This document shows positions 21,982-51,437 of a stretch of DNA of 64,000 nt, piece by piece. Numbering within the stretch: position 1 is the stretch's first letter; the number at the start of each line of letters is the position of its first letter. A program made the position numbers and the translations under genes. Source of the stretch: Mugil cephalus. Taxonomy: Eukaryota > Chordata > Actinopteri > Mugiliformes > Mugilidae. The DNA is taken from the NCBI RefSeq assembly GCF_022458985.1, contig NC_061772.1, forward strand, positions 1,736,001-1,800,000. The letters run 5' to 3'. The notes below the pieces were generated by a model. That model saw nothing but the letters and a program-made list of their open reading frames with translations. It did no database searches and was not told the origin of the DNA.

Positions 21982-24839
21982 TCAGTTATTGAAACTGGTA
22001 GTCATCATTTTCTGCGAAGAGTGGTCTCTGGTTGATGAGTTATCGTCAGATCTAGGCTTGCACATCAAAGCCACAGACCACAGGAACACAAATACACCTG
22101 AAAATGGAAAAGAGGAGGCTGTGAATTACCCCCGGCTAATTATCAATATGCATACTTAACATGAAAAACATTCACATACTCACCCTGCAGGGAGTTGAAT
22201 ATAGTGAATACGTAGATCCCAGGAAGAATGTATGTTGTGCTGGCTAAACCCCAAGGTAAGCCCAGGACACAGCTGAGGCCCACTACTGTGGCACAGTCCT
22301 TCCACAACCCAGTCCATTTCCCTCTGTTTTTATTCCAGCTACCATCTTTCTCAAAGCCTCTACGACTTCTTCTTACTCCCCAGAGTTTAAAGACCACGAC
22401 ACCCAAAATGCAAGAATTATACAGTATCACCAGGCATGGAAAGGCCACAGTAGTGATGTAGCTCACTAAAAGCATGTGTGGGAATTGGCTGCTCATCCAG
22501 CACCTGCACATTATGAAAAAAAGAAAATTCAAAAATGAATTCAAGAACTTTCACTTTGAACAAGGTTATATTTGAATTCCAAATAACTGTTTTAAAGCAG
22601 ACTACATCAAAATGTGTATTTACAAAGACTTCAAACTATCTTTGTGGTTACATATTTAAAAATCACTGGTTGTTTCTTACATGTGTGCTACTGAAGTTTG
22701 GCCGCTGCTATCAGTCAGAGTGTATTTGCCATAAACACCTGAAATTGCACACACCACAGCAACTAGTGTAGGAAGTCCTGAAAAAGAAAAGTCTGAATCA
22801 ACAAATTGGACCGAGAAGCAATAACAAGCCGAGTGAGGTTATCCTCTTAAACTGAGCTCAGCTCAGTTGATTTGTTCCAGAACTGGTTAAGATCGCTATG
22901 TTCACAGTGGCCCAAATGAACCGATCATGAGGGAAACACTCTAGGTGAAGAAACAAGGTGTCAAACCACCATACCAAAACAGTTCTTAATGTCAAGATTT
23001 TAATCTGTGACAGGTTTATTGTGATAATGATGCTGGTGTTTGGGTTGTATGACCACTCCACACACTTGGTGTTCATGCTGCAACATGTCACAAGAATATA
23101 GAAAGCTTTAAGTAAGACCTGCACTACTTCCTGGTACGTAATAAATCAGTTCTGCTCAGAGTTCATGCAGACATAGACCTTGAAGACCACATTAGACCCT
23201 AATTTGACTTGAAAATGTTTCATTGATCTTCGCTGATTGGCTGAATGAAAATGTGTGCTGAACTTACCAAGTATGATTCCTTGCCTCATAAAGGGGCCCC
23301 CTTTTGCCTTCAGAACTGACTTAATTCTTTGTGGCATACTTTCATCAAGGTGTTGGAAACATTCCTCAAAGATTTTGGTCCATATTGAAACGATAGCATC
23401 TTACTATGAGAGGCCGTTTAGGAAATAATTAGTGTGCATGCCCTGGGGCAGCCACACTCTTGTTATTCATATTTGCTCTCACATGTTACATCATACTCTC
23501 TCACATACACTAGTCACACACACTTACTGTCATACTCTCTCACAAACAATTAATACATTTTTTTTCTATTTAACGTTGACAATCATCGCACAATCGCTCT
23601 GCAACTACATCATGTGTCTGTCTGACTAACAGTAGCCATTTCGCCTGCTTTCCAGCCGATGAATGCTAGCAACACAAAATAAACAGTGATTACGTGGGGG
23701 TTTGTATTTTTACCAGTGATTTGTTTTCACCCAAATGGGCTGTGGCCTTTCCAGTGGCATAAGGTTACTGTCTTCCATCCTGCTGGAGAGACACATCCGG
23801 TATCTACACTCGCGATGAGCCAATCAGAAACTGAAAATTCAAGTTGACTTCCGTTTCATTCAAACTGTCTCACACATACTACTATACTCGCACACATCGC
23901 ATGTCAAATTCGTGTAACAGAGTTTTGATTGTAGTGTTTGTGAGTATGATCGTATGTGTGTGTGACTATAGTAGTGTTTGTGAGAGAGTATGATGTAACA
24001 TGTGAGAGCAAATATGAATTATTTCCTAAATGGCCTCTCATTTCTTACAGTTGCTATAGACTTGTTGGCTGCACATCTATGATGCCAATCTCCCGTTCCA
24101 CCACATCCCAAAACTGGGTCTATCATTATATCCGTGATCTGTTATGTTAATAACACTAGAAACTCCTAAACACTGGACATTGCCCACACAGACAAATTTG
24201 TAAAGTGATAGCTGAAAATCTGTTTAGAGGCATCCTTTAGAGTTTTCTATATTCCCACATAAAAATGATACGCAATATCAGTGATTTTTCGCTGAGAGTC
24301 CTGAGAGTATACCGAAAGTAGAGAACCCAGTCAAACAAATGAGACAAAAATTTCATACTCCTACTACACTGTATTTTTTGTTTAAGAAAATTAGCTAGGT
24401 TCTCAGTCATCCGGGTCATGGTAATCAAGGTGTTTAAAAGAAGGCAACTAAACTTGTAGAGTTTCTTGAAGACGTTTCAACACTCATCTGAGTAGCTCCT
24501 TCGGGTCTAAGAGTCTCTTAGAACCTCAACTTCCCACCAATCTCTAAGTGTGCCGTGAGGAGTGCGTTGGAGACCTGGGTTTACATGCACCACAGGATGT
24601 CTGGGCTTGGCTTCGAGACTTTACAGGTGGATGGAGACTCACTCCTGGTTGTTGGAATTTACAGCCCTCCCTCAGCGGACACAGAAACAGCATGCAACAT
24701 GATCCATCCCACTGTTGCTATGGAACTGACCAAACAACCACATCACCTTGGACACTGTTTTGCCAACTACTTTTGTAAATTTGTTTGTAATGCTAATTCT
24801 GTAGTTTTTTGATCGCACTGTTTATTTTATTTGTCCAGA

Positions 24840-24912
<73 letters not shown>

Positions 24913-27900
24913 TTATTCTATTTTAATGTAATCTTATTTTATTTTATCTTTTCAGTTGTGGTTTGTTACTTGTATCATTAAAGATCATCAAAGTCTAAGA
25001 TTATATTCTGTTCAGAAGAGTTTCAGATCATTTTAATGATGTCTGGTAGAAAATCTGTTGAAAGAAGAGGTGTCATGTTTGAAGTATTCCAGCATCAGAA
25101 GCTTATTCCATCTGTGAAACCTGGGGGGTGTAATGTCCTTATTTGGGCCTATTTCACTGTTGACATTGATGGAGCAGTGAATCCTGAATTCTAGAGAATT
25201 GTAAAGTTGTTAGGACATCTCACCACGAGCTGAATCTTAAGAAATACTGCAAAATAAATTTCTTAGTAAATGCTGCTGAAATCACGCGTATGGGAGCACT
25301 TCGGTTTCCCAGTGAACCCTCCGCGTCGTCCATTCATTTCAGATGATGGACACCTCGTCTGCATTAACCCGCATTCACCATGGTCACTTTTTCACAAGAA
25401 GCGGCTGAGTGGACTATTTAACATCTCCGATCCGCAGGCGTTGCAGCAGCAGTTACTAATCAGCTGAGAGGAAGAGAGATGATTGCTTAACGTTACATTA
25501 CGTGATACAAAGTATCCTTTCAGAAGGCCAGTGCACGTATTACCAGGTGTGTGTCTAGAGGATCATGCGAAATTTCCAGTCCACAGGTAGTTTTCTAAAC
25601 CGTTTTTATTGCAAGAAATATCCAAAAAGCGTTAAATAAGGTCAGCTGGACTTGTAGAATTTCTTGAAGACGTTTCGCCACTCATCCGAGTAGCTTCTTC
25701 AGTTCTGATAAACTAGTGGGAAATTGAGGTTTAAATAGGAAAAACTCTGTGGGTAACACCCACCAGAAACTTGCTTGACCAGAAACTGGGGTCACTAATT
25801 ACCATAATGGCTGATACTTACCTGTCCTTGAATGGGGGGAACTGAGTGCCCAAGCTAACTTGCCCTATGAATAGAGCTCTAACGAGGCTATTGTCCATGG
25901 GAACCTGGAGGCTCAATGTGTGAATGTTGTTGAAACTTCTTGGGGACAGAAGTCAAAACTGAATTATAAATAGTTGGTAAATTAAATCTCAGTCCACCTC
26001 CTCTGTTTAGAGAAGGTTTCTCCATTTTGACATAGATGGCTTCCTTAACTCCTCTCTCAAACCATCTGTCCTCTCTGGCCAGGACTTTGACGTTGTTATC
26101 CTCAAAGGAGTGTCCTTTGTCCTTCAGGTGGAGGTGGACTGCTGAGTCGTTTCCTGATGAGCTGGCTCTCCTGTGTTGGGCCATGCGCTTAACACAAGAT
26201 TATTCCCACCAGCCTACACATAGGCTCCACCGTAAAGGGCTTCAAAGCGGAACAAATTCTCCAGAAAGCTCAAGCCCAGCTGCTCAACGAGAGAGTGAGA
26301 CAGGTCCATTTCACCATCGACGCTCTCAAATCCGAGGCCGAACACTGCTTCTGCAAACTAACTTCGCAGCTACCTGAGGACATTCTGGAGAAAGTCTCCA
26401 AATTTGTGGAAAAGGCCCAGATCACACAACACACAAAAGGTAAGGAACGACAGAAACGCAAATTCCAGGTTTTGCAAACTAGACACAACAGAAAACACAA
26501 GTCAGAAGAACTGACATGGAGGAAGAAGGATGACCACACCACGCAGCAGGGCATCCAGAAGAAGTGGGTCCAGAACCTATCACACAGAGAACTCACGCAA
26601 CCAGAGAATGAGATCCTGGCCAAAGGACTAAACTTCGCCATAACACCAGAACAGATTCCAGTGGTAGACCTCATCACTGCTACAGAGTCTGCCATCAAGA
26701 ACAACAAACTGACAAACACAGAAGCCGAACAACTCAGACTGGAAATAACATCAGCCCTCGCCAGTGCAAAAACACCACCATCGAACATCACCCCCCAGGA
26801 AAGGAAGGCGCTAGTATCACTGCAGAAAGACCGGGACATCACGATCCTGCCAGCAGACAAACGGAGATGCACAGTGGTGTTAAACACGGTGGACTACCAG
26901 GCAAAAATGAACAACCTCCTCAACGACCAAGACACTTTGAGACACTGAGACGCGATCCAACCAACATCTACAAAACCAGAATAATAAACTACCTACAACA
27001 ACTGGAAAAGGAGAAGGTCATCGACAGACTCCTTTATTACCGTCTGTACCCAGGGGAAGCCACACCGTGTATTTATGGTCTCCCCAAAATACACAAGGAG
27101 GGAGCCCCACTCAGACCCATTGTCAGTAACATCAACTCTGTCACATATAACATTGCCAAGCATTTGGCATCCATCCTCTCTCCATTAGTAGGCAACACCC
27201 CACACCACATCGAAAACTCCAGGGACTTTGTGAACAAAGTCAAGGACATCACACTGGACCCAGAAGAAACCATCGTGTCCTTTGATGTCACCTCTCTGTT
27301 CACCTGCATCCCCACGAGAGAAGCCACGGATGTAGTAAGGAAAAGACTACAAAAGGATGACACCTTGGCCTCAAGAACCAACCTCACCCCAGAACAAGTC
27401 TGTGTGTTACTCGACCTATGCCTGCCCACCACCTACTTTCAGTTCAATGGAGGTTTCTACAGGCAAAAACACGGCTGTGCGATGGGGTCCCCAGTGTCAC
27501 CGATCGTGGCCAATCTCTACATGGAAGAAGTAGAGACCAGAGCTCTGGCACCTTTGCAGGTTCCACTCCCACCCACTGGTACAGATATGTGGACGACACC
27601 TGGGTTAAAATCAAGACAAAGGAGGTGGAATCTTTCACTAAACACATCAACACAGTGGACAGCAACATCAAGTTCACCAGGGAGGACATCAGCGGGGCCT
27701 GTCTGGCCTTTTTGGACTGTTTGGTATGTGTTGAAGAAGATCGAAGCCTCAACATAGAAGTATATAGGAAACCCACACACACAGATCAACACCTGTTATT
27801 TGACTCACACCACCCCCTGGAACACAAACTGGGAGTCATCAGAACCCTCCAGCACCGAGCACAGACTGTCCCCACCAGACAGGATGGCAAGGACAAGGAG

Positions 27901-30792
27901 GGAACACACATTAAACAAACCCTCAAGACATGCGGATATCCCAACTGGGCCTTTGTCAAAGGCTCCAAAAGATATCCCAGGAAGGACAGGGAAGAGGAAC
28001 AAAACAGAAGGAAGAACATCACCATCCCATAGCTGGGGTATCAGAGAAACTAAGGAGAATTTTTGGTAAACACCGCATCCCAGTTTATTTCAAACCTGGA
28101 AACACCCTAAGACAGAAACTGGTCCACCCCAAGGACAAAACACCTAGACAGAAACAGAGCAATGTAGTGTACGCGGTTCAGTGTAGCGAGGAATGTACAG
28201 ACCTGTACATTGGGGAAACCAAACAACCCATACACAAGCGCATGGCCCAACACAGGAGAGCCAGCTCATCAGGAAACGACTCAGCAGTCCACCTCCACCT
28301 GAAGGACAAAGGACACTCCTTTGAGGATAACAACGTCAAAGTCCTGGCCAGAGAGGACAGATGGTTTGAGAGAGGAGTTAAGGAAGCCATCTATGTCAAA
28401 ATGGAGAAACCTTCTCTAAACAGAGGAGGTGGACTGAGATTTAATTTACCAACTATTTATAATTCAGTTTTGACTTCTGTCCCCAAGAAGTTTCAACAAC
28501 ATTCACACATTGAGCCTCCGGGTTCCCATGGACAATAGCCTCGTTAGAGCTCTATTTGGTCAAGCAAGTTTCTGGTGGGTGTTACCCACAGAGTTTTTCC
28601 TATTTAAACCTCAATTTCCCACTAGTTTATCAGAACTGAAGAAGCTACTCGGATGAGTGGCGAAACGTCTTCAAGAAATTCTACAAGTCCAGCTGACCTT
28701 ATTCAACGCTTTTTGGATTACCATGACCTGGATGACTGAGAACCTTCACAGACACATTGCAAGAAATATTATCCACCTTTCACTCTAATCATTTAATGTG
28801 TAGAGGATCCTCCTCTAAATTGTCCAGTTCCTCCGGTTTAACCTTGTGTCGCATCTCCTTCTTCTTTTCATATTCCCAGTCTTCAGAATGATCAAATTCA
28901 CCGAACAGGTTAAAGTTAACTATAAAATAACTAATTTTTTGTCAACTGTATCGCCATTTTGATAAATAAACTGAAATAACATATGTTCTGTTCTGTTTCT
29001 GTTGCCTTGGTTACCAAAGCATTTGAGCCAGCGCAATGATTTAGAACTGTCATCAGGTTGTTTGACCGGAACTTCTGGGTGTCCATTGTCACTTTTTAAT
29101 GTACACCCCGCAGCCAGTCAGAATCGAGGATCCACCCAGACCATGGTTTAAGTAAGGGTTTATGCCCGACGGGGTGAAAGTGTGGTTTTTCTTTGAAAAC
29201 CCTAATGCATTTGTTTTATGTTTTATTCTATTTATCTTTAACTTTTTACAACAGGAGATGGTTTTAGTTTTGCAGTTTCTGTTCAAAATAAATGAAAAAA
29301 GCTAGTCTTATACATGTCTGAGTTTTTGTTGCTATTTTCCTGTTGTACCGAACCCGTACCGAACGGTGACCCCTATACCGAGGTACGTACCAAACTGTAG
29401 CTTGTGTGTCTGTTACACCCCTAATATATATATATATTTGTGTGTGTGTGTACATTCTACTTAAAACACTGTTCCAACCAAACTCCACTTACCCCATCCA
29501 ACCAAGCTGAGCTTGAGTAGGTATCTTCTGACGTAGATGTTAAACACTCGTACAAGGAGAAGGTAGAGATGGAATCCTTCTAGAGCAGACCAAGTGAACG
29601 TGGCCAGCAGGGACCAATGTAAAAAGAAACCCAGAACACTGCAACGCCAGTCATCCATGTATGATGAATGCAGCAGCCCTTCCAAGAAACTGCCGAGCAG
29701 GAAGATGAGGTGGAGGCAGAGCAATGCCCCTGTTAGGTGCATATGGAGACATATGGCATTCTCAGGACGCTGGCGACTAAAAGAGAAATAACAGTATTAC
29801 ATGATAATTTTCATATTTGTTATTTAGCAGATGTAGTCATACATCCAGCCCTGGTCACTTTGTCTTGAATGTTGCAAGTACTTCCACCGCAACACTGTCC
29901 TGATTATTTTGTTGCTAAAATAATTGTAGCCAATGAAAAGCCCTGAACACTTTCTTGTGCGTGCTAGCCGGCTGCTGTACTGATTTGATTCTGCTTTCTG
30001 GTATATAGTAAAAATGTGGTATGGCCTAGTATATTGATAGTATTGGGTGCAAGTTGTCTAACAGTGTTGGGAAAGTTAATAGCACTAAGCCTCAAACAGG
30101 AAACCATTAGACAGAACCTTTGTTCAACATGCCAGTGTAAACTCTAAAAACAATGGTAACTTCACACTGAGAAATCAGACAAGCTTGTGGTCATGCATAT
30201 ATTGGGTTCCTGAAAGAGCTATTTAGATAGTTATCTTGACTAGCGACACCTATCTAGGTCAAACATGTTTTGCTCTTTGTGCAAAATTAGAGCTGCACAA
30301 CCTGCTACTTTAAAGGAATGTATCATAGACTGTAGAGACTGAAAAAACTCACTGTAGACAAATATAGATGATCAAACTGATGAATGTGAAGACAACAGAG
30401 AGCGCTGATCCAGCATAGGAGATATAGCTAAGGTTCACAGCATTATTTTTATCCACTTTTAATTCTGGGTTCTGGAACAGAAAAGACATAAGAAAAGGCT
30501 TAAGAATGAGCCTCTTGAGGAAACAGTAACTTATTAATTGATGCAGTTTTGCACTGAAAAAAAAAGCTCTTCACTATCAAATATCACCTTCACTTAGTTC
30601 TAGCCTTAAACACCAGTTAGCCACAACATTATCAGGAGACACTATGACAGGAGAAGTTAATATCATGGATCATGGCATTCATGTGGATGTTACTTAGACA
30701 TGTAACACCCACCTAGAACAGACCAGACACCCCCACCCCATAGCAATGACACTCCTATGACACTCCTCGAGGGAAGCGGCCATCCCCAACAG

Positions 30793-30853
<61 letters not shown>

Positions 30854-32385
30854 CTTAGGAACAACTCAAAGAAAAGTAAAAGAACAGGATAAGGTGTTGA
30901 CCTAGCCTCCAAAGTCACTAGATCCCAAACTGATCAAGTATCTGTGGGATGATCCACAGAGGCCCCTCCCCTCAACCCATAGGGCCTAAAGACCCCCACT
31001 AACGTCATTCTGTTGATAGGACACCCTCAGAAGACTCATGTCCATTCTTTGATGAGTCACAACTGTTTTGGAGGCACATGAGAGACCTACACAATATTAG
31101 GAAGGTGGTCATAATGTTATGTTTGATCAGTTTACATAAATTTTCATGGCTAAAATTTCTCTTTCTCTAGACTGCATGTTTCCATGAAGGTGGATGGAGT
31201 ATACTATAGAAAATATAATGAATTTACCACAAGCACAGCAAAGAAGCTCAGGTGGTCGCAGCTGCAAATAAATTCAGATCCACCATCAGTGATGTTACAG
31301 CCCTCCTTGCTCCACTGACCTAAAAGATCACAAACACACTATATTTAAATCTGACTTTCATTTAAGAACCAAAACAGTGTCTCTGGCATATTTAACTCAC
31401 CCCTTTTATTTTCATCGTCCCAAAAAACACAAGCTGGATTTTCCACCTGAAGCATAAGAAGGTGCATTAAAATAAGAGGAATTGCTTTGTTCCAAATATA
31501 GTTTTATTTCTGATGTTTTCATCATTTTACCATTTTGTTGTATTTGAAGAACAGCTGAACTGGCTCTGAAAGGTTTCTGACTGGATGATTTCCGACCTTC
31601 ACTACCAGAACTAACCCTCCCAAAACTATGCCTTGTGTGTGGACAGGTGGGTAGATTAGACTTCGTCCTTTCGTCTGCAATGACATTTAGAGGTGGCAGA
31701 AGGTACACATGGAGCAGACTGAGCTTAAGTAGAAGTAAATTCAAAACTGGAAACAGGAAAACAGACAGTATCAAAAGTTCCTTTATTTTCAACAACGTCT
31801 GATTGTCAGAAGATACAGTATATGGAAAGCAATGCAAAGTAGCATGAGCTATGTAACCGGAAATCAACAGAGAAAGCTAAGTAAAGGCTATTTAAATCAT
31901 TCTCATTTTGTTGTACCTTTAAAGCTACTGACCTTAGCCACATCGTCAAAATAAGAGCTGTCAATCACTGTAGACACCAGAGAGACCTCCTCTTCGGACC
32001 CATTTCCTCTGCTCATCTTTAGAGCCGAGGATGGAATGTGAACTCTGTGTTGTAAAGTAATGTTGCCCTCAGTCTAAAACCATTAGGATGCACAAAGACA
32101 TACAAACCCTGTTTACACATACTGGATATACAATGCAAGAGGGAAAGATAAAATGACCCAAATGTGTTTGTGCTATATGCAGATGATGAAAAAAACAAAG
32201 CTGTTTTGCTTGTACATTGTTTAGTATCAGATAAATAATTGGATTTATTTTTTCCTTGAAGTACCAACTGATTCTAAATGCAGCCTCACCTCTTTTGATA
32301 TGTTCACTTTCTTCAGGATGAAGTTTGGGGGGGTGAAACGTCCTTTTAATGTGCAGTTTGCAATTTTTTTTGTATAACACCTACC

Positions 32386-32432: not shown

Positions 32433-33024
32433 ATACAGTATATATTAGGCAGTCATTTTTACTTTGGACAACAGTTAGGATAATGAAACCATTTCAAAAT
32501 CTTTTGGTATGAAATGGAGAAATGAAAATGTGCCTTTGAAACACTTTCATCAACGTTAATAAGTTAGAATTAATACTCAGCCTAATGGATCATATAAATA
32601 AGGTGCTTATTTTTTAGTCTCTCACAATCAGGCCAGTGTGAATCCATCATTCATCAGCTGCACAGTACAACTCACCTGGTCCAAGGATACTCCTGCTGGG
32701 CTTTACAGTGGTTGAGGACATCATCACAAGTCAGTCCACGATTTGTGAGCGCTGAATCAGACAAAACTTAGAAGTGACATGCAAGATAGTCTGTTATAAC
32801 TGTGGTCATCAAGGAAAATGATTGTGACTTAAGCTATGCAAACGACAAGTCCCCACCACTGAGGAGCAGAGAGCTGTCTCTTGTTTGATGAACTACTTTC
32901 AACTTTCATAGATAGCTTCAAAATATTATTCACCATCTTTAAAGACAACAACAAACACCTGTAAATGATACTCACCACAAGCTTGGGACACATAAATTGT
33001 GACGAGAAAAAGAGTAGTCCACAT
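21982..33024 (-). CDS. Adhesion G-protein-coupled receptor, G subfamily (gene A), complete
   Basis: Twelve coding exons (minus): 32976-33024, 32676-32751, 32290-32380, 31933-32067, 31531-31674, 31401-31446, 31228-31319, 30353-30471, 29493-29776, 22681-22777, 22184-22503, 21982-22097. All splice sites are GT-AG and the sum is 1569 bases, giving 522 aa. Signal peptide MWTTLFLVTIYVSQACG; an N-terminal region with several N-glycosylation sequons; a GAIN domain (GLVLVVKVGNHPVRNLSEPV); a GPS with Trp/Cys pattern and FICSCDHLSFFAVLV, predicting self-cleavage between HL and SFFAVLV, the tethered agonist. Seven membrane segments follow (FHLYLLLVRVFN in TM3; LGLPWGLA in TM6; FTIFNSLQG in TM7). Length and layout are close to ADGRG5/ADGRG3. 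Intron 9 (6.7 kb) holds nested transposons. Ligand unknown. Confidence 0.9.
22866..23122 (-). repeat. Second copy of the 19245-19516 sequence, inverted
   Basis: Reverse complement of about 230 bp of 19280-19512, roughly 85-90 % alike by eye. On the minus strand it keeps an 88-codon frame (22858-23124) containing CCSMNTKCVEWSYNPNTS, not recognised. In intron 9 of gene A. Confidence 0.6.
23288..24125 (-). mobile_element. Tc1-like relic interrupted by a MITE
   Basis: Left part 23288-23404 (ttgccttcagaactgactta, aacattcctcaaagattttg) and right part 24043-24125 (ggctgcacatctatgatgcc, ttccaccacatcccaaa) are contiguous in the known fish Tc1 family; a 638-bp element separates them. No usable ORF. 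Confidence 0.75.
23405..24042. mobile_element. 638-bp long-inverted-repeat MITE
   Basis: Starts tatgagaggccgtttaggaa and its right end inverts to aatgagaggccatttaggaa; the similarity goes on inward (tattcatatttgctctcaca against its inverse near 24000). Flanked by tcttac on both sides (23399-23404 and 24043-24048), a likely 6-bp target duplication. Family not assigned. Confidence 0.75.
24396..24540 (-). repeat. Penelope-like element terminal fragment
   Basis: Contains gttctcagtcatccgggtca, ttgtagagtttcttgaagac and gtttcaacactcatctgagt, matching the inverted terminus of the element at 25622-25740. Confidence 0.7.
24600..24780 (+). pseudogene. Non-LTR retrotransposon endonuclease fragment (L2-like)
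   Basis: A plus-strand frame reads LLVVGIYSPPSADTETACNM followed by IHPTVAMEL, resembling the start of the apurinic endonuclease domain of fish L2-type elements. Less than 60 residues remain. Followed by an ATT microsatellite. Confidence 0.55.
24838..24914. repeat. (ATT)n microsatellite
   Basis: About 25 uninterrupted ATT units. Confidence 0.97.
25888..26190 (-). pseudogene. Inverted partial copy of the GIY-YIG nuclease end
   Basis: Minus-strand frame of about 98 codons identical to the C terminus of the main ORF (begins MAQHRRASSSGNDS, ends PPGSHGQ). It belongs to the inverted pseudo-LTR at the left end. Confidence 0.9.
26205..28538 (+). pseudogene. Penelope reverse transcriptase / GIY-YIG endonuclease, broken by three frameshifts
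   Basis: Copies element RNA into DNA at a nick made by its own nuclease. Frames in order: 26205-26948 (N-terminal), about 26936-27590 (reverse transcriptase first half), 27545-28032, and 28025-28538 (nuclease). Motifs: PLRPIVSNINS; motif A SFDVTSLFTCIP; motif B GCAMGSPVSP; motif C WYRYVDDTW (27577-27603) with both aspartates present; then a GIY-YIG domain, VVYAVQC..C..LYIGETKQPIHKRM (about 28165-28240). Frame changes fall near 26938, 27550 and 28028. Each piece is otherwise open, so decay is recent or partly sequencing error. I describe the breaks and do not rejoin the protein. Confidence 0.9.
30611..31133. mobile_element. Deleted Tc1-like element with internal (CA)n
   Basis: Left end gttagccacaacatta and right end gtcataatgttatgtttgat are the inverted termini of the same Tc1 family as at 9919. 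Between them only scraps remain (catggcattcatgtggatgt; caagtatctgtgggatgatc), with a CA microsatellite at 30795-30847. In intron 7 of gene A. Confidence 0.75.
30795..30847. repeat. (CA)n microsatellite
   Basis: About 26 CA units inside the deleted Tc1-like element. Confidence 0.97.
32387..32428. repeat. (CA)n microsatellite
   Basis: About 21 AC units; starts six bases upstream of the acceptor of gene A exon 3 (exon edge 32380). Confidence 0.97.
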
Positions 33025-38500: not shown

Positions 38501-41500
38501 CAGTCCCAATCTGGAACCATCAACAACACACAGTAGCTGTAAAAATTCACTATAATTCTACTGGCTGTCTTATTAAAAACATCTGCATCAATGCAAGGTA
38601 TTCAAAGAAGTGATATCCACTTGTTATACTCCTAAACCAAACATGTGTAAGTAGAAGTCTCTTGGTTTTAAATGACTGTGTGTTGATAAAGGTAGACAAG
38701 GGTTGAGAGTATTCCATGCCCAGTGTTTAAGATTCTTTCTGGATTTAATCATCAAACCACTGAAATGATTTAATCCTTACAACCCAACAATAATTAAGTT
38801 GCATCTAAACAGTAACTTGAATACAAGTCAGTGCTTTACAGTTTATCTTGTTGTAGGCAAAAACTGGCGTATACCTACCATGCTCATCCAAATAGTGGCA
38901 CAGTAACTTCGAAGTGTTCTGTAAAAATATAAATGGAAATGTAGGGAGCTATGTTATAGTTAACAGTTGCATGTACAACCAACTCAAGCTTTCTCAATAG
39001 ATTAAATATGGTGCAGTAGTTCAAAGTCAAATCCTTCAGTCTCTTTATATATCACCAGACTTTGGTATGACCTCATACAAAGAATAGCTGAAAAACCACA
39101 AATGGAGATACAGTATTTTAAATTTAGTTGACAAGCTCTCATTCTGAACTGACTGTAGTGAAGGACTACTTAGCTATCGGAATTAAATTACTTTCACTGA
39201 GGTGCAACACAATGTCACAGTATGATTAAGTCTAGTGAGTCTTGCTCCAACACAACTTTCTTTCCTTTGTCCTACAGTTTATAAAAACAAAAACACAACA
39301 AAAAAAAACAAAGCGATGATAAAATGTTACATCCTTAAACTGGCAGACTTACGGTCCCAGTTGTTTGCGTAGGGAAATTCATCTTGATTGGCGTATTCAG
39401 ATTATAGAGATGCCTTTCCCCTAGTAGCTCTATTCTGATAACCATTGATGAAATCTCCTCCTGGTTAAGCTGACCAAAGGAATACTGTGAGTTGTACAGT
39501 GATGGACACGCAAGACACTATTACATAGAACACACAGTTTACTGTAAACATCTGTAATGAAGATGTTGTAATATGATTCATTAAAATGTTCTTGGCCAAA
39601 GGTCTGAATGACCAATACTCATTGGCCAGGGCTAAATGATGAATCTAACTGATTGACCATGTCAAGTGAATATAGAGTGAATATAGACATACTTTGAACT
39701 GACTGTGGTGCATGTAGCTGACCAAGCCAATGATCCTCTTCTCCTCTGGGATGGTGCGCAGGGCATCCACAGGCAGCTGAACCGTAGGTACAAACGACCT
39801 GTTCTGAGGCGGCAGCAGCTATAAAGAACTAGCTGATAAGTCACGCTCAAAATACCCTCATTGATGATCAAACCTTGGTCAGCAAGCTTAATTTGAATTG
39901 AGCCTGAAGTTAGCCTGATATAACAAAGACTAAAGCATTTGCTGTTTCCTCAACAAGATTTTCACAGCCTGTGTACCTTTGGAGCTTCCATCTGGATACT
40001 TAAGTTGGATTCTACAGAGGAGAGGTTAGAATCACTGATGTTTACCACAAGTAGAGACAAGTATTTCAGGTCGTAGATCGTGGGGCTTCCAGCCTTAACT
40101 TGAGTTGTTCCCATAATCGAATGAATCATCTTCCTTTCCAATCTACATAAATAAGATGGGCATGATGCAACATGAAAGACCCTTCTGTGCAAGTGTATTT
40201 AGAGAATCTGAGCATGCATACAAAACCAATGCTAACACTCTAATCTGTGAGGGTCCTCACTTGTCTAGGTCAAGCTATATCCAAAAACCAAAAGGGACCT
40301 ATGCTTCAGTGTTTACTGTTTTCGTCAATGCAAATACTTGCTCATAAATGCAAAGTAGAGCAGGGACCGACGGTCGATAACCAAAGTACTGGACCGCATA
40401 AGGTATGTTGACGTCATGGAGGAGGGAGAGGGAGAATGGTGGCAAGGAAAAACCCACCCTCAAGCTTGCTCTGGAGGTTTCAGGATGGTTTTTGTGACAA
40501 TTCTCAAGACAATTTGTATTGTTATTGGCTCTATATGAATTGAATTGAATTGAATTGAATTGAATTGAATGGAATGGTGATGCAAAGGAAGGAAAGACAA
40601 TATTGATTCTCTGGGAAAGTACCAGAATTGTGCTAGTCATGTGGCAAAAAGCAAACATTACTAGAGAAATATACAGTATATGTATGAGTTAATTTAATAA
40701 TAATGAATATGAATATCCTAGCGCCACAAACCTGGATTGACACTTACTCTAGAAAAGTTTTTTTGACAACATGATCGCTACTGAAGAGCAGTTTACATGT
40801 ATCCCATATATCGAAGAGTTTCATCATTCCTTTCTGGTCAGAGCTGTTACAAGTCAAAGTCTTAATCAATGGCAAGATGACGTCTAACTCACATAAATAT
40901 TTGGAGCAGTTGTTATCTGTGAAGTGAGACGAGAACAAGATCAAGACATATATTAGTCCTATTTAAAGAAAGTTGGGACTTCACACGTGATACTTGCTAA
41001 AGACATGACTGTACAGGGACAACAGTCTATTTGGGAGACAGTATACTTACAGTCTCCAAAGACATACTCAAACTTGGTTGGCTTATATGTACTTGTAGTA
41101 TTGAGGCAAATGAGTGATCCACTTGGCCATGTGTAGTTGCTGAATGTGCAGTTAAAGACACAAGGGATTCCATTCACAGAGCAGTTAGTTACACCTAGGT
41201 TTTCATAAAGGTTGTTCCCACAGGTGTCATTAATATTAATGCGATAATCTGAAAAGTTGAGACACACTGAACACAGAGTCAGAAGAATCAACTTACTGCA
41301 ACATACACATGTTCAGTCACACTTACATAAATGGACATTTTCACCTTCCCGCCTCATTTTTTTAAAATGTTTTAAAAACATTAAAACCACACTAAATCGT
41401 AGCAAATTCTAAGCATATAATGTAATATGACCCATTCATGAATCTTGCACTTGACTGTATTGTACTATTTACCTATAACAGTCAATACAATGTGCAAAAG

Positions 41501-41945
41501 GGTTGTTGGGAGATTTTGTATAACCTGAATAACTATTAGTATTATTTGGGAATCTGTTTTGAGCAAACACATTTTTGTGTATTGTTGAATACATATGTGT
41601 ATACCTTAACATTATGAAGAATGCTTTTGGTAGTTTTTGTCAGAGTTTAATTAACCACCGCCTTGCTAAATAACCACACTTGTGTGCTTTTACTTTTTTT
41701 TTATTTGCCATTGTCACTAAAATAAGCTTCATAGATATTAGTCACAATTTAAATTCCTAGGTACACTTTTCAGTTAAGTTTGCAAACAAATGGATAATCT
41801 TCTTTTCTACCAATTTTGCAAAGATACATTACACTTTCCTCCTTCTCTGGTGAACAACACATGAACAAGCAAAACTGACATTCATACCTTGGTCAGCCAG
41901 TGATTCACACAGCAGCAGCATTAACAGCATTAAAGGAACCATCAT
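35581..41945 (-). CDS. Adhesion G-protein-coupled receptor, G subfamily (gene B), complete
   Basis: Thirteen coding exons (minus): 41888-41945, 41051-41248, 40748-40916, 39977-40142, 39693-39818, 39353-39469, 38879-38918, 38404-38510, 37472-37587, 36900-37168, 36464-36569, 35800-36128, 35581-35693. All GT-AG; sum 1914 bases, 637 aa. Signal peptide MMVPLMLLMLLLCESLADQ; a cysteine-rich N-terminal region in exons 2-3 (nine Cys, several N-glycosylation sites) that I do not recognise; GAIN sequence in exons 4-6 (PPQNRSFVPTVQLPVDAL; LVSYMHHSQF); GPS DIICSCNHTTPFAVLL, predicting a cut between HT and TPFAVLL. TM3 is MAIEALHLYLLFLKVFN, TM6 GLTCLMGTTWGLAF, TM7 LFCILNSLQGFFMFVW. Exons 9-11 match gene C in size and phase, showing tandem duplication. 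Starts with two Met codons; the first is used. Function and ligand unknown. Confidence 0.9.
36295..36385 (-). repeat. Fragment of the deleted Tc1-like family
   Basis: Contains cagccacaagactaaaacca then aatttggaggccaggtcaac, both ends of the same deletion derivative as at 43100-43280, squeezed together. In an intron of gene B. Confidence 0.6.
40380..40575. repeat. Retroelement 3'-end-like repeat with (GAATT)n tail
   Basis: Sequence ending ttggctctatatgaattgaa followed by about seven AATTG units, as in the simple tails of fish non-LTR elements. In intron 3 of gene B. Family not certain. Confidence 0.5.
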
Positions 41946-43090: not shown

Positions 43091-43099
43091 AATGCATGC

Positions 43100-43155: not shown

Positions 43156-43200
<45 letters not shown>

Positions 43201-43280
43201 TAATAATAATAACAATAACAATAAAAACAAAAAACAAAAGAACAGCACAAGGTGCTGACGTGGCCTCCAAATTCACATGA
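43100..43280. mobile_element. Deleted Tc1-like element with (CA)n, next to the gene C stop codon
   Basis: Starts tacacactgatcaatcacaa, then attaaaaccactgacaggag, (CA)n at 43157-43198, and tgacgtggcctccaaattca. It shares both flanks of the microsatellite with the copy at 30611-31133. Ends about 20 bp from the stop codon of gene C, so it should lie in the 3' UTR. Confidence 0.7.
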
Positions 43281-43296
43281 CTTTCTGGTTTTAGGT

Positions 43297-46200
43297 TTAG
43301 GTGCTTTGACTGCTCCTCACAGGGTCTGAGTTTCCAGCCTTTCTCAAAGACATCAAAAACCACAGGAAGATGGAGAACCCTGCATGCAGGAAACGAGAGA
43401 AAGAGTGAAGTAAAAATTTAGACTTTGTCTACACAATCTAACAGTTGCCAGGTTAATATGCAAACATGCAGTCAAATATCTGCTCTATAAATACATACAG
43501 TATTTTAACATTATGGACAAGACTTACTATTCCTGACAAGCAAGTGCAATGAATTAGAAAGGCATCTTCTAATTTTCCATTGGGAGCAAAGATCCTCAAA
43601 CCTGTGTCAAATCCAGAGTCTCTGGAAACTAGTTATTTTCAATGATATACAATTTGCTCCTCCATTACATGTTGAGAGATTCCCAACCTGGCCTGTAGAG
43701 TCCATTTCCTGCACTTTACCAACTTAGCCGCATATGGAATCTGTTTAATATATCAAATATTTGGTTTGTATTGAGTAATTTTGGAATATTTTGTGCCACA
43801 ATCTGAACAAGCTTGATAAATCTCTCACGCAGCATGAGTAGATCAAGATGCAGAAACTGATCAGCAGAAGCAGAAGAATGGGGAATATTGAGTTGAGCCG
43901 TCGGCTTCACTGAAATCACGCGTATGGGAGCACTTCAGGTTTCCCAGTGAACCCTCCGCATCGTCCATTCATTTCAGATGATGGACACCTCGTCTGCATT
44001 AACCCGCATATACCATGGTCACTTTTTCACAAGAAGCGGCTGAGTGGACTATTTAACATCTCCGGTCTGCAGGCGTTGCAGCAGCAGTTACTAATCAGCG
44101 TAGAGGAAGAGAGATGATTGCTTAACGTTACATTACGTGATACAAAGTATCCTTTCAGAAGGCCAGTGCACGTATTACCGGGTGTGTGTCTAGAGGATCA
44201 TGCGAAATTTCCAGTCCACAGATAGTTTTCTAAACCGTTTTTATTGCAAGAAATATCATCCACCTTTCACTCTAATCATTTAATGTGTAGAGGATCATCC
44301 TCTAAATTGTCCAGTTCCAGTTCCAGGTTTAACCTTGTGTCGCATCTCCTCCTTCTTTTCATATTCTCTTCTCTCTTTCTTTTCTGCTGCATCCCAGTCT
44401 TCAAAATTATCAAATTCATCAAACAGGTTAAAGTTAACTATAAAATAACTCAACTGTATTGCCATTGTGATAAATAAACTGAAATAACGTATGTTCTGTG
44501 TTTCATGTCTGAGTTTTTGTTGCTATTTTCCCATTGCACCGAACCCGTACCAAACGGTGATCCCCATACCGAGGTACGTACCAAACCGTTACACTCCTAC
44601 TACAGAACAAAGACAAAAAGTAAAAAGATGTTGCCCAGACCTTGCAGTGAGTTCAGGATGGAAAAAACGTAAAGGCCTGGAATGGCCAGATAGCCAAACG
44701 AGAAGAAGATCAGGCCCCAGGTAATGCCAAGAAGAGTGATGACTCCAAGCAGGGTACAAATGTCTTTCTTGGCTCTATTACGATCCCACGGTCCAAACTG
44801 ACATGCAAATTTTAGGGTAAAACAGCAGTTGGTTATAGACCATTAGAAACCAGTTACCAATTACAAATCTATATGAAACCCTGACATGTGTAAAGTCTTG
44901 GAGAGTGACTCTCTTTTCAATGAACACATACAAAATACTGTATTTTGTCATTACTCTTTTAAGGATTAATAATGGAATTTTTGAGGATTTTATGGGAAAC
45001 AGTAGCATATACATGGAGTGTGTGCAAGGGAAAATAAATGATATAAAAAAATGTTATCAGAAAAGCAAATAAATAGATAGGGCAACCCAATGTACTTTAT
45101 GTACCTCTAACTCTCATAAAAGATTGTTGCCTACTGCCAACAAAGGGCATGCTGGCAGTGAGACACTTACGAAATGAGATATGATGATCCTTTAATTTAT
45201 CACCATTTATTCTCAATAAAAGAGCAAAGAGTGGATTTCCATACCTCTTGACTACGGCGAAGACTGACGACACGTTTGATTGTTACCCCTAACATGATCA
45301 TGTTGAAGAGGAACACCAAGGAAAACATTCCAATTGTAGTCCCATTCTTCACTGTGTTATTAGTTAAATAACATCTACAAAGAAAAGAAGCATATCTATA
45401 AATGTAATGTCATTTACTGAACAATCAAAATGGCATTGTGTCATCAAAGATGTCAATTCACGTTGACAGAAGGTTTCAGCTACATTTAGTGAAAGTATTC
45501 CTGGACAAATTTTGATTGAGTGCCAACTATAGGGTGTTAGAAGCGTGGTGAAATGGTGTTTGCTGCTTGTTCCTGCTACCAGTGCGTCAGTTCTGTTTGA
45601 ACATTCAAATACACAAAGATATTTAATAAGTTAGTTATTAGTCTTAATTGTACACTCTTGCAAATGTGTTTCTGCTTTTTCCCTTACATCGATGTGTTTA
45701 TAGTTGAGTCCACAATGACACTACCATAGTTGCGTGTGTCTAGGATGACCACAATTGACACAATGACAGCAGGAATACCTGAAACACAAGAATTAACAAG
45801 CGACTATCATGTGACTGAACAGTTGTTGCTTGATGATTGCTGATTGAGAATGAAGACAAAGCCACTCACCCCACCCGACTACACTGAGTTTCAGCAGGTA
45901 TCTCTTGAAATAGATGTTGAAGATTTTGACTAAGAGAAGGTAGAGGTGGAAGCCCTCTATGGCCATCCAGCTAAAAGTAGCCAACAGGGAGTAGTGAAGA
46001 GCCAGACCCATGTAAAGACAAAGTCCATCGTTAAACAGTGCTGCCGCTGCCTGGTTGGGGAGGAAGTGTAAGTTGAGCAGGATCAGGGCAATTGCAAGGT
46101 TGATGTGGACCTTCATGGAGACATCTGCTCTAATTTTTCTGTGGGGCAGAGGATAAATTATCTAACGTGAGTAGAGAGGTTTGATTTCTTGATTACAAAG

Positions 46201-49200
46201 TGGTTACAAGGAAATTAGGTCTTATGTGGTGAAAAACAAATGATCAATGGATGAGAGAACAACAATTAAGAAGTCTTTTAAAGAAAAAGAAAAAAGGAAC
46301 AAAACAATTGAGGCAACTTATGGATGTAAGTAAAGGACAGTAAGAAAAAGTCAAACAAGCAGGAGGAAGGGAGAAGAAGAGCTGAAAATGTGATGGGGGC
46401 AAGTAGCAATAGATGTTACATCACTTGCATTGTGCGAGTTGTGAAGACAGAAGCAATAAAGGACAGTGAAAGTTTACCTGTTTGTGATGAAGAGCAAAAC
46501 AGTCATGACCAGTGCAAAAAGAGAAATACTACAGCCAATCAGAGTAATGTATGTGAGAGCAGCCAGGTCTTGAGGTGGGGGTGTGGCAGACAGCTGTGGA
46601 GAAAATACACATTCACATTCTCTTGCTGTTTTATTGTGACTGCCAGTGAATTATAGGACTGACATTTTACTAAATTAGCAAATGTATCCTCAATGTAGTG
46701 GAGAGTTTAAGCACTCTACGTACAATTTTAAGAAACTGGGGTTTTGCTTTTGGTACTTCCAATTTATGCTGAAGTATAGATAAAACAGATCTGTACCACT
46801 ATTGATTCTACGATTATTGGTATTTTAGTAACACCTAAACCTAAATGAAATTTTGAACGTAGGGTTTTTATTGGATCCCTGCGCTGTATTTAAGGTCACT
46901 GCATGGAGAACGAGAGGTCTTTAACCTTTGTGGCATCTAGTGGTAGCATCAAGAATGACACTGTGATAGCCAGCATTGGATGTTGTTTTGTAGACAAAAG
47001 CATCTATCACGGTAACAAATTATTTTTAAGAGACATTTTTGACCATAAGTAATTGTTGTAGACCCTGCATACTATACAAAAAAACATAATAGTTATCATA
47101 TATTTTATAGTGTAACATCTTCCGTAGCCAATAAAATGAGGATCACCATAGGTCTAACTGTATATATGCTCTATATGCGTATACACATAAAATCACCTTT
47201 GTTGAGTACAAATAATTTTTATTCTAGCATTAGTACTCGTTATTCAACATATAAATATTTATAGTAGGGTCAAAATGTCTCAGAACATAGAATCTCAGAG
47301 TTCATTTTGAGTAAAAGGAAAATTATTTTTGCCACCATCTCTAAGTCAGCAATCAAATTCAGAATAGAAGGGATCAGCCACCACATCAGATGAACAAAAT
47401 ATCAAGGTTTGTTTACCGAGAACCAAACTAACAAAAAAATTGACATCACAATAAGTTCTGTGGAACATTATCAGATCATGTCAGGATGATGGGTTTGAAC
47501 TAGAGGTCGACCGATATGGATTTTTTCAAGCCGATGCTGATGTTTTAGACGCTGGTCAGCCGATGGCCGACGTCTGCTGCCGATATTTTCCTGGCCGATA
47601 ATTGAAAGTTCCCCTTCTACTTGCATAAGAAAAATGGCACACTAATAACAAAGGATGCAAAGAATTATGAAGTCAACACAACTTTTATTGATAAATAGAA
47701 AACAAATAGACAAAAAAATATATAAAAAAAAATATAAATTAACAATTTAGTGCACAATTGTTGTTCAAGGAACATTTATATAACAAACATAATCCTTCTT
47801 CTAACATATATTTAGCCTGTATAAAAACAGAAAAAATATAAATTAACCATATAGTGCACAATGGTGGCAAACAGCAAAAATTTTCAAAGAACATTTATAT
47901 AACAAAACACAGATCCCACATTTGGCCTTCTCTGGTGTTGGCTCGCTGAAGTATTCCCAAACTGGATTGTTTTTTTGTTTGTTTTTCAGCCATTACTAAA
48001 ACAAAATAATCACACATGGTTAGTATTTTTAGTAGTTCCTTCATCTTAAATCCATTTAATAACCACTTGTATATTAAAACAGATCCTCTAATATATTTTG
48101 AAAAATAATGAGTAGTAGGTTAGCCTACTGGTGGACAAGAACTAAAATCTTTCACTAACATTTCACTAACATATTTTTGTTGAGATTGCTTACTGGCCAA
48201 ATGCAGACAATCTGGTAATCACACACACAAAAATGTTTGCTGTGTATCGAGAGATCTGATTATCTATTCGAATCTTCGTTAAAAACACGCTGCACTGAGA
48301 AAACAGCCCGCATCAACTTAATTGTGCTTCTAAACTGATATATCCGGGAGCTGTGTCTCCGTGCAATTTAATGTGTCGAGAGAGGGGGAGGGACGTAGCC
48401 CCCATTCACGCTGCAGTGTTTGAGACCTGCTGCCTGCAGCGCTAGACACCCTACACACACCCCGTTACTATTACCGCCACACACAAACAGTTCAAATTCT
48501 GCGACTGTGACAAAAGAAAAATAAAACCGAACTCACAACGTCGGGGGTGATGGTTGTAATAGACTACCCTTTCGTAATGCTAAGTTACCTATAAGCTACA
48601 GTTGGTCGAAGGCTTGCTGTAAGTTCACCGCCGTTTAAGGCTCCGTTTAATAATGTACCCAATAAAAGGTAAATATATGCTTATTGTCTATGACTTTCAA
48701 AGACGAGAATTTAAGCCTTACCTGCTCTCCCAAGAGAGTTGTGCGCTCAAAAAAGTTTTGGCTTGGGTCCTTCTCACGCAGCAGCTGCACGATCCACCGC
48801 ATCAATAACAGTGGGCTGTCCGCGGACGTGCCAGAATTTAAATCGGCCACGACCATCGACCGATTAAAAAGGTCAAATAGGCAGATGAATCGGTCGACCT
48901 CTAGTTTGAACCAACTCGATGACTCTATGCAGCTTAATTAGAATGGCTGTAAATTGATTTGCATCTTAGGCCATCTGAGCAGATCAAATCATATGAGGGC
49001 TTCCTCAGTGAAGGGACACAACAAAGTTACCCCGTCAACTCAGATGGACTTGAATGAGACTGGTGTATCTTGTCGTGATTACTTATGTTTTTATCCATAT
49101 CCTGCAGTCCCGTATATGCGCCAACATATTGTGAGTTACTGAGAACAGGAGACAGGTTACTTCCATGTGTCAAGAATTCCTGACCAGTTGAATGATTGAT

Positions 49201-51437
49201 TAGTTGTGTGAACCCACAAATCTAGTTTCCGTAAAAGCTACATGGCCCGGAGAGTTGATATTTTTGTTCTCTGATCATTGAGGATATGTTTTGCAGATAC
49301 AATTGAAGAGACAAATGGAAGCTATGTTATAGAGTTACCCACTATATTCTACATGTCGCTATTTCTATGTTTTACAGGAGAAAGTCCTATCAGGTCTCTG
49401 CTAATACTGTTACTCTTGAGCCTGACTTTGCATAATGAAAACGGCCAGTCCTACCATGAGCACAATAAAGTATGTGAGATGGTCACAGGAACAGGTGATG
49501 TGACTCCGTTCCCATCTTGTTACGCAGCCATCAGGGCTAAATTCTGGTAAGTCAGAAAGACAAATCCATCATGTCTACGATTTTGTCACATAGAAGTTAC
49601 ATCTGCAAGCTTTGCTGGTTGTGAACAAAAACTCAGAAGCCAAATTAGCATTATTTTAACTAAACTATTCTTCATGACAGAGGTGATGCTGTATACTCAC
49701 TTTCAGTTGAAAAATTATAGAACTGGCACGAAGGCTTTTGGGTTTCCTATGAGACAGTAACATCCCAGGTTAACATAAGATCATAGAGGGTGAGGACACA
49801 GGGAATGATGAAAATAATAAAATGAAGTTGTACTTACATTTACAACCGTGGTAACATTTATGGTGATGTTTACATGTTCCTGTAGTCCTGAAACATTTTT
49901 GTCCTCCACACTCAGGCTAATCAGTCTTTCCTCATACAGGTTAACCGAGGGTTCCAAATCAAGCTACAGGACAGCATACATTTAGTCAGAGCTGGATATA
50001 GGATATGCTGACAACACCAGCAAATACAGAACACTCTGAAAGTGCTGCACTGGAAAAACAGCAGTTTGTTGTTGTTGTTGTTTTTTTGTTTTTTTTTTAA
50101 ATTGGTTTAATATATGGATCACATGATTCATTATAAGGTATTTGTTTTTATTAGCTGGACAATTTAAATAATCTGACGACATAGACAATCTTTTTGCCTA
50201 CTTTTGCATTAATGATATGTAAAGATTTTGATTATTGTATTTCTGCGTACGAGTATTTGCATTGCGTGTCTTTATCCGCAAGTAGGCCAAAAAGTAATAT
50301 TTAGATATAAGGATATAAGGACTGTTTGATAATATCATAACCAGTGGGGATATTGAAAATAATAATCACAATCTTTTCTCTGTTTAATTTTTAAAAAAAC
50401 ATGCAATCTCACTTTGAACATACAAAACTAAATTTAGAATACAGTCTTTTGGAATGCAGCTCCTAAAAGCCTGTTCTACAATTTTTTTCATAAAGTGTTG
50501 GTGCTGACCCAGTTTGTTGAGTAAAGCATTAGAAAGGTAATGCCATTGTTTGGTCCGGCATCTAGCTCTTTTGGCAGTTGTACAGTCACTTTGCTGTTTA
50601 GGACAGGCCCGTCCAGCATTACCTACATCACAGACACAGCACCAAGAACAAGACGAGACATCATTTGTTCATGTCTGTAATCTATAATGATAATGATTAT
50701 AGATTACAGATAATTATAATGAGTTATTAAATGTGAATAATCCAACTCTACAGCTGCTTTTATATCTTATACCAAGACCAGAGAACAAATATGAATTAAC
50801 AAATGACCACACACTTCAACATATTCAAGATATAGTATGTCATCACATGTCGACCAAAGTGGAAGACAATTTAAAAAATAATCAAATAAACAAACAATTA
50901 TAATGACAAAAAAAGTGATATTTTTACCTCGGTATCACTGGCTTGAAGTTCAAGGCCTTTAAAGGGGTGACTGGGTTTGTGCATTAAACCCACACCATTA
51001 CAGAGGGACAACTTTTGGCAGTTTACCAAGTTTTTTATTTTCTCGTTTATATATTGTTGCATTTGCTTAAGTTGTCTTGTGAAAAAAACACAGGAAATTT
51101 TTAAGACAAAAAGACAAAGCAAATTCTTTCGCTCATGGATAAAAAGTACTTAGAATCAAATATACATGAACACAGATGCTCTCACAAACATACAATCACA
51201 GCAGTGAAATAAAATGTTTACCCCTTGCTGTTCGTGCTATTCCATGGAGATTCACATCTTTCGGATTTCCCTGTCAAATAAATTATTATTAAGATATTAT
51301 TAAGATGATAAAGGTGATATTGAAAGTATCAACATGCTATATTGTACCATATTAAAGCAACTTATACTTTGTTCAGTACCTTCACACTTGGGACTGTGAA
51401 CAGAGCAAAGATCAAAGAGCAAAGAAGTCAGGACCAT
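43297..51437 (-). CDS. Adhesion G-protein-coupled receptor, G subfamily (gene C), complete
   Basis: Thirteen coding exons (minus): 51380-51437, 51222-51270, 50928-51075, 50509-50622, 49838-49963, 49701-49746, 49455-49543, 46478-46593, 45870-46138, 45688-45778, 45245-45374, 44641-44797, 43297-43379. All GT-AG; sum 1476 bases, 491 aa. Start chosen at MVLTSLLFDLCSV, a signal peptide; upstream in-frame sequence is also open (KWWLFLW). Short ectodomain with GAIN (NITINVTTVV), GPS ITCSCDHLTYFIVLM (canonical HL/T cut; tethered agonist TYFIVLM, near the TYFAVLM of human ADGRG1/ADGRG5). TM3 MAIEGFHLYLLLVKIFN; TM6 LGVITLLGITWGLIF; TM7 YVFSILNSLQGFSIFLWF; short tail ending SSQST. The TM5-TM7 unit is split by an intron that genes A and B lack. 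Ligand unknown. Confidence 0.88.
43911..44599. mobile_element. hAT transposon copy 3, truncated
   Basis: Begins at the same base as copy 2 (ctgaaatcacgcgtatggga) and ends ccgttacactccta. It lacks the roughly 300-bp segment present in copies 1 and 2 before the right end. In the last intron of gene C, 42 bp from exon 12. Confidence 0.8.
47501..48903 (-). mobile_element. hAT transposon, deletion derivative of a spliced BED-type element
   Basis: 1403 bp with a perfect 8-bp duplication gtttgaac (47493-47500 and 48904-48911). Ends tagaggtcgaccgatatgga and, inverted on the right, tagaggtcgaccgattcatc. On the minus strand a first exon (48729-48856) opens MVVADLNSGTSADSPLLL, with donor CAG|gtaagg; an acceptor near 47996 leads into NPVWEYFSEPTPEKAKCGIC, a BED finger. 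The catalytic part is gone, and about 70 bp are repeated in tandem near 47725 and 47840. Lies in the gene C intron between the GPS and TM1 exons. Confidence 0.88.

Follow-up and report, generated by a model that had tools for sequence, protein, structure and literature searches.

The stretch of Mugil cephalus DNA analyzed here (the window, 64 000 nucleotides of contig NC_061772.1, C3:1736001-1800000) carries three genes, A, B and C, which are very probably intact members of the ADGRG family of adhesion G protein-coupled receptors (aGPCRs; GPR56/GPR97/GPR114 type) in one tandem array. A genome-wide search (634.8 Mb, 24 contigs; 150/224 candidates scored) placed four matches to the Pfam model 7tm_2 in the window, all on the minus strand and within the three gene ranges, and comparison of the window's six-frame translation with itself located matching exons at ~22-31 kb, 36-38 kb, and 45-50 kb. 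Each predicted protein begins with a hydrophobic N-terminus, continues into a diverged ectodomain that closes with the GAIN/GPS region, and has a seven-transmembrane (7TM) domain. A first-pass annotation of the window had described three complete tandem aGPCR genes, and this description held: there is one gene per 7TM domain, on the minus strand, with 38 exons in all and no internal stop (Table 1). The three genes add members to a receptor family already known in fish and humans.

Gene models were built by splice-aware dynamic programming with generic consensus splice matrices. The codon table was compiled from 4370 codons, of which 3725 came from eight intronless paralogues and ~645 from core transmembrane (TM) exons in the window. 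Anchors were placed on TM, GPS, and GAIN exons, start codons were fixed, and four long-intron stretches were closed to exons. The resulting models of A, B, and C comprise 12, 13, and 12 exons (37 in all) and 524, 634, and 472 amino acids (aa). Adding a 49-base exon 2 of gene C (51270-51222), spotted by eye and in phase with the end of exon 1 at 51380, yields 38 exons and 524/634/491 aa, with 35/35 introns GT-AG and no internal stop, as expected from the first-pass statement that only GT-AG introns occur and all frames close. This exon, found in no dynamic-programming solution, was sought because the earlier annotation gave gene C 491 aa, 19 residues more than our model. The gene C start at 51437 is likewise the earlier coordinate; unforced runs started the gene at 50619 in one case and at 51437 in one setting of another. 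Since the start was borrowed and exon 2 was fitted to 491 aa, the agreement on the 5′ end of gene C and on 38 exons is not independent. Independent agreement extends to the lengths of gene A (524 vs 522 aa) and gene B (634 vs 637 aa), the gene A stop at 21982, and the TM exons; the lengths proposed earlier were thus closely recovered for A and B, and that of C is equal by construction.

The chance control covered the span of gene C, with eight dinucleotide shuffles at each of two settings and without anchors. The permissive run yielded 14 exons, 498 aa, and a score of 75.0 (shuffles ≤209 aa, ≤16.3), and the strict run 326 aa and a score of 37.5 (shuffles ≤60 aa, ≤-0.3). Among the 14 permissive exons, nine were exact model exons and four were spurious, lying in the GPS-TM1 intron of gene C. 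Because shuffled DNA at the permissive setting still closes 6-12 exons in frame, in-frame closure alone is weak evidence, and the gene claim therefore rests on length, coding score, and homology. An unanchored model at high intron cost fused TM5 of gene C with TM1 of gene B and was dropped for anchored runs, and earlier anchored models either missed GPS and ectodomain exons or placed spurious exons in long introns, which were then closed. Read-through at the last donor of gene C (stop after FVFVL, ~44600) was not adopted as the principal terminus, since exon 43379-43297 shares its phase and its G(F/V)..F.W start with the last exons of A and B.

There is an appreciable, though lesser, chance that the 5′ ectodomain models contain errors or lack exons and that the true ectodomains are longer or different. 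In A (exons 2-3), B (2-4), and C (1-3), the 5′ exons are based on splice sites and open frames rather than homology; the model of gene A drops from 12 exons at intron cost 0 to 11 (484 aa, exon 3 lost) at -2.5, exon 4 of gene B appeared in the final anchored run only, and exon 2 and the start of gene C have the history given above. Against such errors, the by-eye reading and the dynamic programming are nearly equal in length for A and B.

Table 1. Exons of genes A, B, and C and transposable elements in their introns (window positions; ECL2, extracellular loop 2; ICL3, intracellular loop 3)
Feature	Positions	Strand	Basis or remark
Gene A exon 1: ATG, hydrophobic N-terminus	32976..33024	-	anchored splice search
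Gene A exon 2: ectodomain	32676..32751	-	splice sites and open frame only
Gene A exon 3: ectodomain	32290..32380	-	splice sites and open frame only; absent at intron cost -2.5
Gene A exon 4: GAIN	31933..32073	-	start shifts to 32044 at intron cost -2.5
Gene A exon 5: GAIN	31531..31674	-	alignment to solved ADGRG3 and ADGRG6 GAIN
Gene A exon 6: GPS, CVFWD	31401..31446	-	splice search, Pfam
Gene A exon 7: GPS and tethered agonist, CDHL/SFFAVLV	31228..31319	-	splice search, Pfam
Gene A exon 8: TM1	30353..30471	-	splice search, Pfam
Gene A exon 9: TM2-4	29493..29776	-	7tm_2 genome search, splice search
Gene A exon 10: TM4 end and ECL2	22681..22777	-	splice search
Gene A exon 11: TM5-TM7	22184..22503	-	self-comparison, splice search
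Gene A exon 12: TM7 end, C-tail, stop	21982..22097	-	splice search
Gene B exon 1: ATG, hydrophobic N-terminus	41888..41942	-	splice search
Gene B exon 2: Cys-rich, several N-glycosylation sites	41051..41266	-	splice search; no Pfam match
Gene B exon 3: ectodomain	40748..40916	-	splice sites and open frame only
Gene B exon 4: ectodomain	39977..40142	-	splice sites and open frame; final anchored run only
Gene B exon 5: GAIN	39693..39803	-	final anchored run
Gene B exon 6: GAIN	39353..39460	-	splice search, ectodomain search
Gene B exon 7: GPS start	38879..38918	-	splice search, Pfam
Gene B exon 8: GPS and tethered agonist, CNHT/TPFAVLL	38404..38510	-	splice search, Pfam
Gene B exon 9: TM1	37472..37587	-	splice search
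Gene B exon 10: TM2-4	36900..37168	-	7tm_2 genome search, splice search
Gene B exon 11: TM4 end and ECL2	36464..36569	-	splice search
Gene B exon 12: TM5-TM7	35800..36128	-	7tm_2 genome search, splice search
Gene B exon 13: TM7 end, C-tail, stop	35581..35693	-	final anchored run
Gene C exon 1: ATG, hydrophobic N-terminus	51380..51437	-	start from first-pass annotation
Gene C exon 2: 49 bases	51222..51270	-	by eye; fits phase and the earlier 491 aa
Gene C exon 3: ectodomain	50928..51075	-	splice sites and open frame, not homology
Gene C exon 4: GAIN	50509..50622	-	splice search
Gene C exon 5: GAIN	49838..49963	-	splice search, ectodomain search
Gene C exon 6: GPS start, CQFY	49701..49746	-	splice search, Pfam
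Gene C exon 7: GPS and tethered agonist, CDHL/TYFIVLM	49455..49543	-	splice search, Pfam
Gene C exon 8: TM1	46478..46593	-	splice search
Gene C exon 9: TM2-4	45870..46138	-	7tm_2 genome search, splice search
Gene C exon 10: TM4 end and ECL2	45688..45778	-	splice search
Gene C exon 11: TM5, then phase-0 ICL3 intron not in A or B	45245..45374	-	splice search
Gene C exon 12: TM6-TM7	44641..44797	-	self-comparison, splice search
Gene C exon 13: TM7 end, C-tail, stop; past transposon copy	43297..43379	-	splice search
DNA element in gene A intron 9	25276..29436	.	split at about 25622/28756 by second element
Copy of that DNA element in last intron of gene C	43910..44586	.	54 bases past preceding exon

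Pfam PF00002 (7tm_2) matched A, B, and C at E 3.4e-26, 1.5e-30, and 6.2e-38 (C as 472 aa), and PF01825 (GPS) at E 1.6e-14, 2.7e-8, and 5.5e-9 (54.5, 34.6, and 36.9 bits, cut-off 22.5). Beyond these two models, Pfam at E 0.1 gave no match in any of the three; a PLL-type domain was not among the matches, and ~200 N-terminal residues of gene B are without a Pfam match. Among solved chains in the Protein Data Bank, gene A was closest to ADGRG3 (216 bits; next ADGRG6, 194) and gene B to ADGRG6 (221 bits) and ADGRG2 (211), and gene C matched ADGRG2, G6, G5, G3, and G1 in this order (225 down to 187 bits). In full-length searches of B and C, ADGRG chains stood above L3, D1, and E5; in that of A, one ADGRG4 chain fell just under L3. 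A protein search against ADGRG1, ADGRG3, and ADGRG5 of other fish had been proposed in the first pass; among solved chains ADGRG receptors do lead, with ADGRG3 the best match for gene A only. Searched alone, the ectodomain of A matched solved GAIN domains strongly (ADGRG6 E 4.2e-12, also ADGRG3 and ADGRG1), that of C weakly (ADGRG3 E 3.8e-4, with ADGRL3 close at 5.4e-4), and that of B weakly (ADGRG1 E 3.1e-3). Pairwise identities among the three are 24-28% in the ectodomains vs 37-40% in the 7TM parts (gene C as 472 aa), confirming the earlier view of strongly differing ectodomains on a shared 7TM domain. All three aGPCR signatures (LHxxxLxxFxW, GxGxP, and FxxxxxxQG) are present in A and C, and in gene B the first L of LHxxxLxxFxW is replaced by M. 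Motifs for steroid sites are said to be present in over 70% of aGPCRs.

The presumed tethered agonists read SFFAVLV (A), TPFAVLL (B), and TYFIVLM (C), with F at +3 and L at +6 throughout; these two positions matter in tethered agonists. Because this core is kept in all three, A, B, and C most likely function as ordinary ADGRG receptors. By analogy with the family, each would be transcribed separately, and its GAIN domain would cut the chain at the GPS, so that the new N-terminus of the membrane part would serve as tethered agonist; once the ectodomain is removed or moved, this segment would enter the 7TM bundle and activate G proteins. Tethered agonism of aGPCRs is described in a 2026 review (PMC13197933). 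Two results tell against this reading: no Pfam GAIN model gave a match at E 0.1 in A, B, or C, and GPS cleavage is uncertain in B and C because the triad of B is H-T-T and C lacks both usual GPS tryptophans, replaced by Y and F (triads HLS in A, HTT in B, HLT in C). The middle triad residue does vary, since solved ADGRG6 reads HFT. The missing tryptophans, the non-standard triad, and transposons in introns of A and C might also mark at least one of the genes as a recent pseudogene or as unexpressed despite its open frame, but 1649 codons open over 38 exons at ~38% paralogue 7TM identity, together with GPS and 7tm_2 scores far above the cut-offs, make this very improbable.

The TM exons of A/B/C measure 119/116/116, 284/269/269, and 97/106/91 bases with agreeing phases, matching the sizes (116-119, 269-284, and 91-106 bases) and phase pattern reported in the first pass. 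That annotation took them to show common descent by tandem duplication, a conclusion that does not follow: a 269-base TM2-4 exon with phases 2 and 1 is also present in 4/8 other ADGRG-like loci (C21:0.8, C15:24.3, C18, and C21:3.6). For one further locus, gene D (see below), 269 is among several options and the draft model takes 263; in the remaining 3/8, a simple scan did not give 269. As loci elsewhere in the genome share the 269-base exon, exon sizes are an ADGRG family-wide trait and are no proof of close kinship among A-C. The TM5-TM7 segment is a single exon in A (320 bases) and B (329) and two exons in C (130 + 157), a difference not mentioned in the first pass. It is one open segment in A, B, and 6/8 other loci, and an intron interrupts it in 2/8, within TM5 at C15:24340439 and in ICL3, phase 0, at the ADGRG6-like C21:822376. 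The ICL3 intron of gene C, also phase 0, lies eight residues further from TM6 than that of the ADGRG6-like locus (C21:0.8); we considered it as a derived feature and dropped the idea, given the phase-0 ICL3 intron at that locus.

The TM2-4 exon of gene C had 23 matches in the genome, 11 of them ADGRG-like by score (the other 12 at E 2e-5 or worse): A, B, C, one locus ~11 kb beyond the left edge of the window, and a further seven spread over C5, C15, C17, C18, and C21. The receptor tree comprised 20 sequences and 261 columns, with human ADGRG4 not included and six loci (L020, L022-L026) kept out as weak matches of other families. All ADGRG rows split from four fish intronless aGPCR loci (100/100). 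Human ADGRG2 and ADGRG6 formed a supported group with loci on C5, C15, C18, and C21 (100/98), with A-D outside; the tree joined C15:1.3 and C18 with human ADGRG2 and C21:0.8 with ADGRG6, and paired C5 with C15:24.3. The ADGRG-like loci C21:3625099 and C17:9069970 (L017, L018) share 49% 7TM identity and had no supported join to human ADGRG2/6 or ADGRG1/3/5. In the best tree, A-D stood with human ADGRG1/3/5 (support 72.9/33); within this set, human ADGRG3 and gene D grouped with A, and human ADGRG1/5 grouped with C, both with weak support. Gene A is 40% identical to human ADGRG3 in the 7TM part and 38% to B and C, and gene C is 46% identical to human ADGRG5. From these comparisons, the most likely identities are ADGRG3-like for gene A and ADGRG1/5-like for gene C; gene B is an ADGRG receptor of ambiguous subgroup. 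Because the best tree pairs A with ADGRG3 and C with ADGRG1/5, the duplications would be old, and the A-C set probably derives from old tandem duplications.

Several results pull against these placements. Ultrafast bootstrap values within the ADGRG1/3/5 side were 12-52. Among eight tree constraints, three gave the best tree itself, and the remaining five all escaped rejection; the approximately unbiased test gave p-AU 0.189 for A+B+C monophyly (cost 8.4 log-likelihood units), 0.150 for A-D monophyly, 0.225 for a human-only ADGRG1/3/5 grouping, and 0.479 for B joining ADGRG2/4/6. The 7TM part of gene C is equally close to human ADGRG2 (42%) and ADGRG1 (41%), and that of gene B is nearest to ADGRG6 (41%) and ADGRG2 (40%). 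None of three single-copy genes that we take to be markers of the human ADGRG1 region (katanin con80, USB1, and COQ9) lies beside the cluster: katanin con80 was located on C3 at 31.6 Mb and on C21, and USB1- and COQ9-type genes were both on C10. Alternatively, A, B, and C could stem from one ancestral receptor by duplications within ray-finned fish and so be each other's closest relatives, a history in keeping with their single locus, single strand, and common exon order as well as with the non-rejected A+B+C monophyly. We consider it unlikely, given its likelihood cost, the identities of A to human ADGRG3 (above those to B and C) and of C to human ADGRG5, and an exon layout common to ADGRG loci on other chromosomes. 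The tree of the 7TM region suggested in the first pass supports, weakly, the pairing of A with ADGRG3 and C with ADGRG1/5, and does not reject A-C as closest kin; old duplications remain our preferred reading. A more far-reaching proposal, in our view improbable, is that B and D are additional ADGRG receptors of the GPR56/GPR97 locus that lack a human counterpart, which would mean four tandem ADGRG receptors at this locus in the bony-vertebrate ancestor, and that B is a signalling receptor with an H-T-T site that is cut poorly or never.

The three-gene array is incomplete, with an inverted fourth member just outside the window. Gene D (L032) is an ADGRG-like gene ~10 kb to the left, on the plus strand, opposite to A-C, in which Pfam matches a GPS exon at E 5.5e-10 and a TM2-4 exon at E 7.2e-7 (7tm_2). 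Its draft model (C3:1721000-1725892) is incomplete, lacking part of the GPS and the last exon; the GPS reads CDHLTYFSVLVV, and the draft TM exon phases are the same as in A-C. Between D and A lie an amino-acid permease-like gene (E 8.3e-14; its in-window tail is below cut-off) and a second gene, without a Pfam match, which we take to resemble SLC7A6OS. Beyond gene C, past the right edge of the window, lies a metalloproteinase-like gene (Peptidase_M10 E 1.6e-30, hemopexin, DUF3377), presumably a matrix metalloproteinase of the membrane type. In human, ADGRG1/3/5 are adjacent to one another, and the permease-like and metalloproteinase-like neighbours would fit human chromosome 16.

Transposable elements leave the receptor reading frames untouched. 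Intron 9 of gene A (6715 bases) contains a DNA element split by a second element of ~3.1 kb (at about 25620-28718), whose inverted arms (25870-26190, 28236-28556) are 99.7% identical. A GIY-YIG domain just under the cut-off (20.5 vs 22.6 bits), together with features typical of such elements, suggests that this second element is Penelope-like. The first element recurs in the last intron of gene C. Two Tc1/Sleeping Beauty-type transposons lie elsewhere in the window (5049-6662 and 60897-62510), 99.4% identical over 1614 bases and in opposite orientation; both have ~206-base inverted ends, and the transposase frame is intact in 5049-6662 (357 codons) and broken in 60897-62510.

The value of the exon list is mainly for annotation, as it separates three same-strand genes within 30 kb. 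Gene callers could be misled by the 6.7-kb transposon-filled intron of A and the transposon before the last exon of C. If the orthology is true, this is a fish locus with ADGRG3-like and ADGRG1/5-like receptors side by side. The genome search also returned an array of single-exon GPS/7TM receptor frames at no fewer than seven loci at C21:17664918-17946916 and one more at C17:18583316 (L001-L008), which are candidates for the ADGRF-like expansion described from fish, and at least four more 7tm_2 matches on one strand within 43 kb (C23:15971710-16014745), a possible further tandem receptor array.

Compared with vertebrate ADGRG1/3/5 (GPR56, GPR97, GPR114), A-C are alike in their GAIN/GPS and 7TM parts, tethered-agonist core, short C-tail, and tandem neighbours (as in the human cluster), and differ in having no PLL-type match among their Pfam hits. 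ADGRG2/4/6 (GPR64, GPR112, GPR126) are also similar: several copies in this genome have the same TM2-4 exon size and phase, A-C are 34-42% identical to human ADGRG2 and ADGRG6 in the 7TM part, and the ADGRG6-like locus shares a phase-0 ICL3 intron with gene C. In zebrafish blood stem-cell formation, ectopic G3 can compensate for G1 knockdown, according to the 2026 review (PMC13197933). A 2015 zebrafish survey lists gpr56, gpr97, and five Group VIII-like genes (G8L1-5), with no clear GPR114 homologue (PMC4335454); its description of the Group VIII-like genes would also suit B, D, and the C21/C17 pair. A-C fit the published picture of fish Group VIII aGPCRs.

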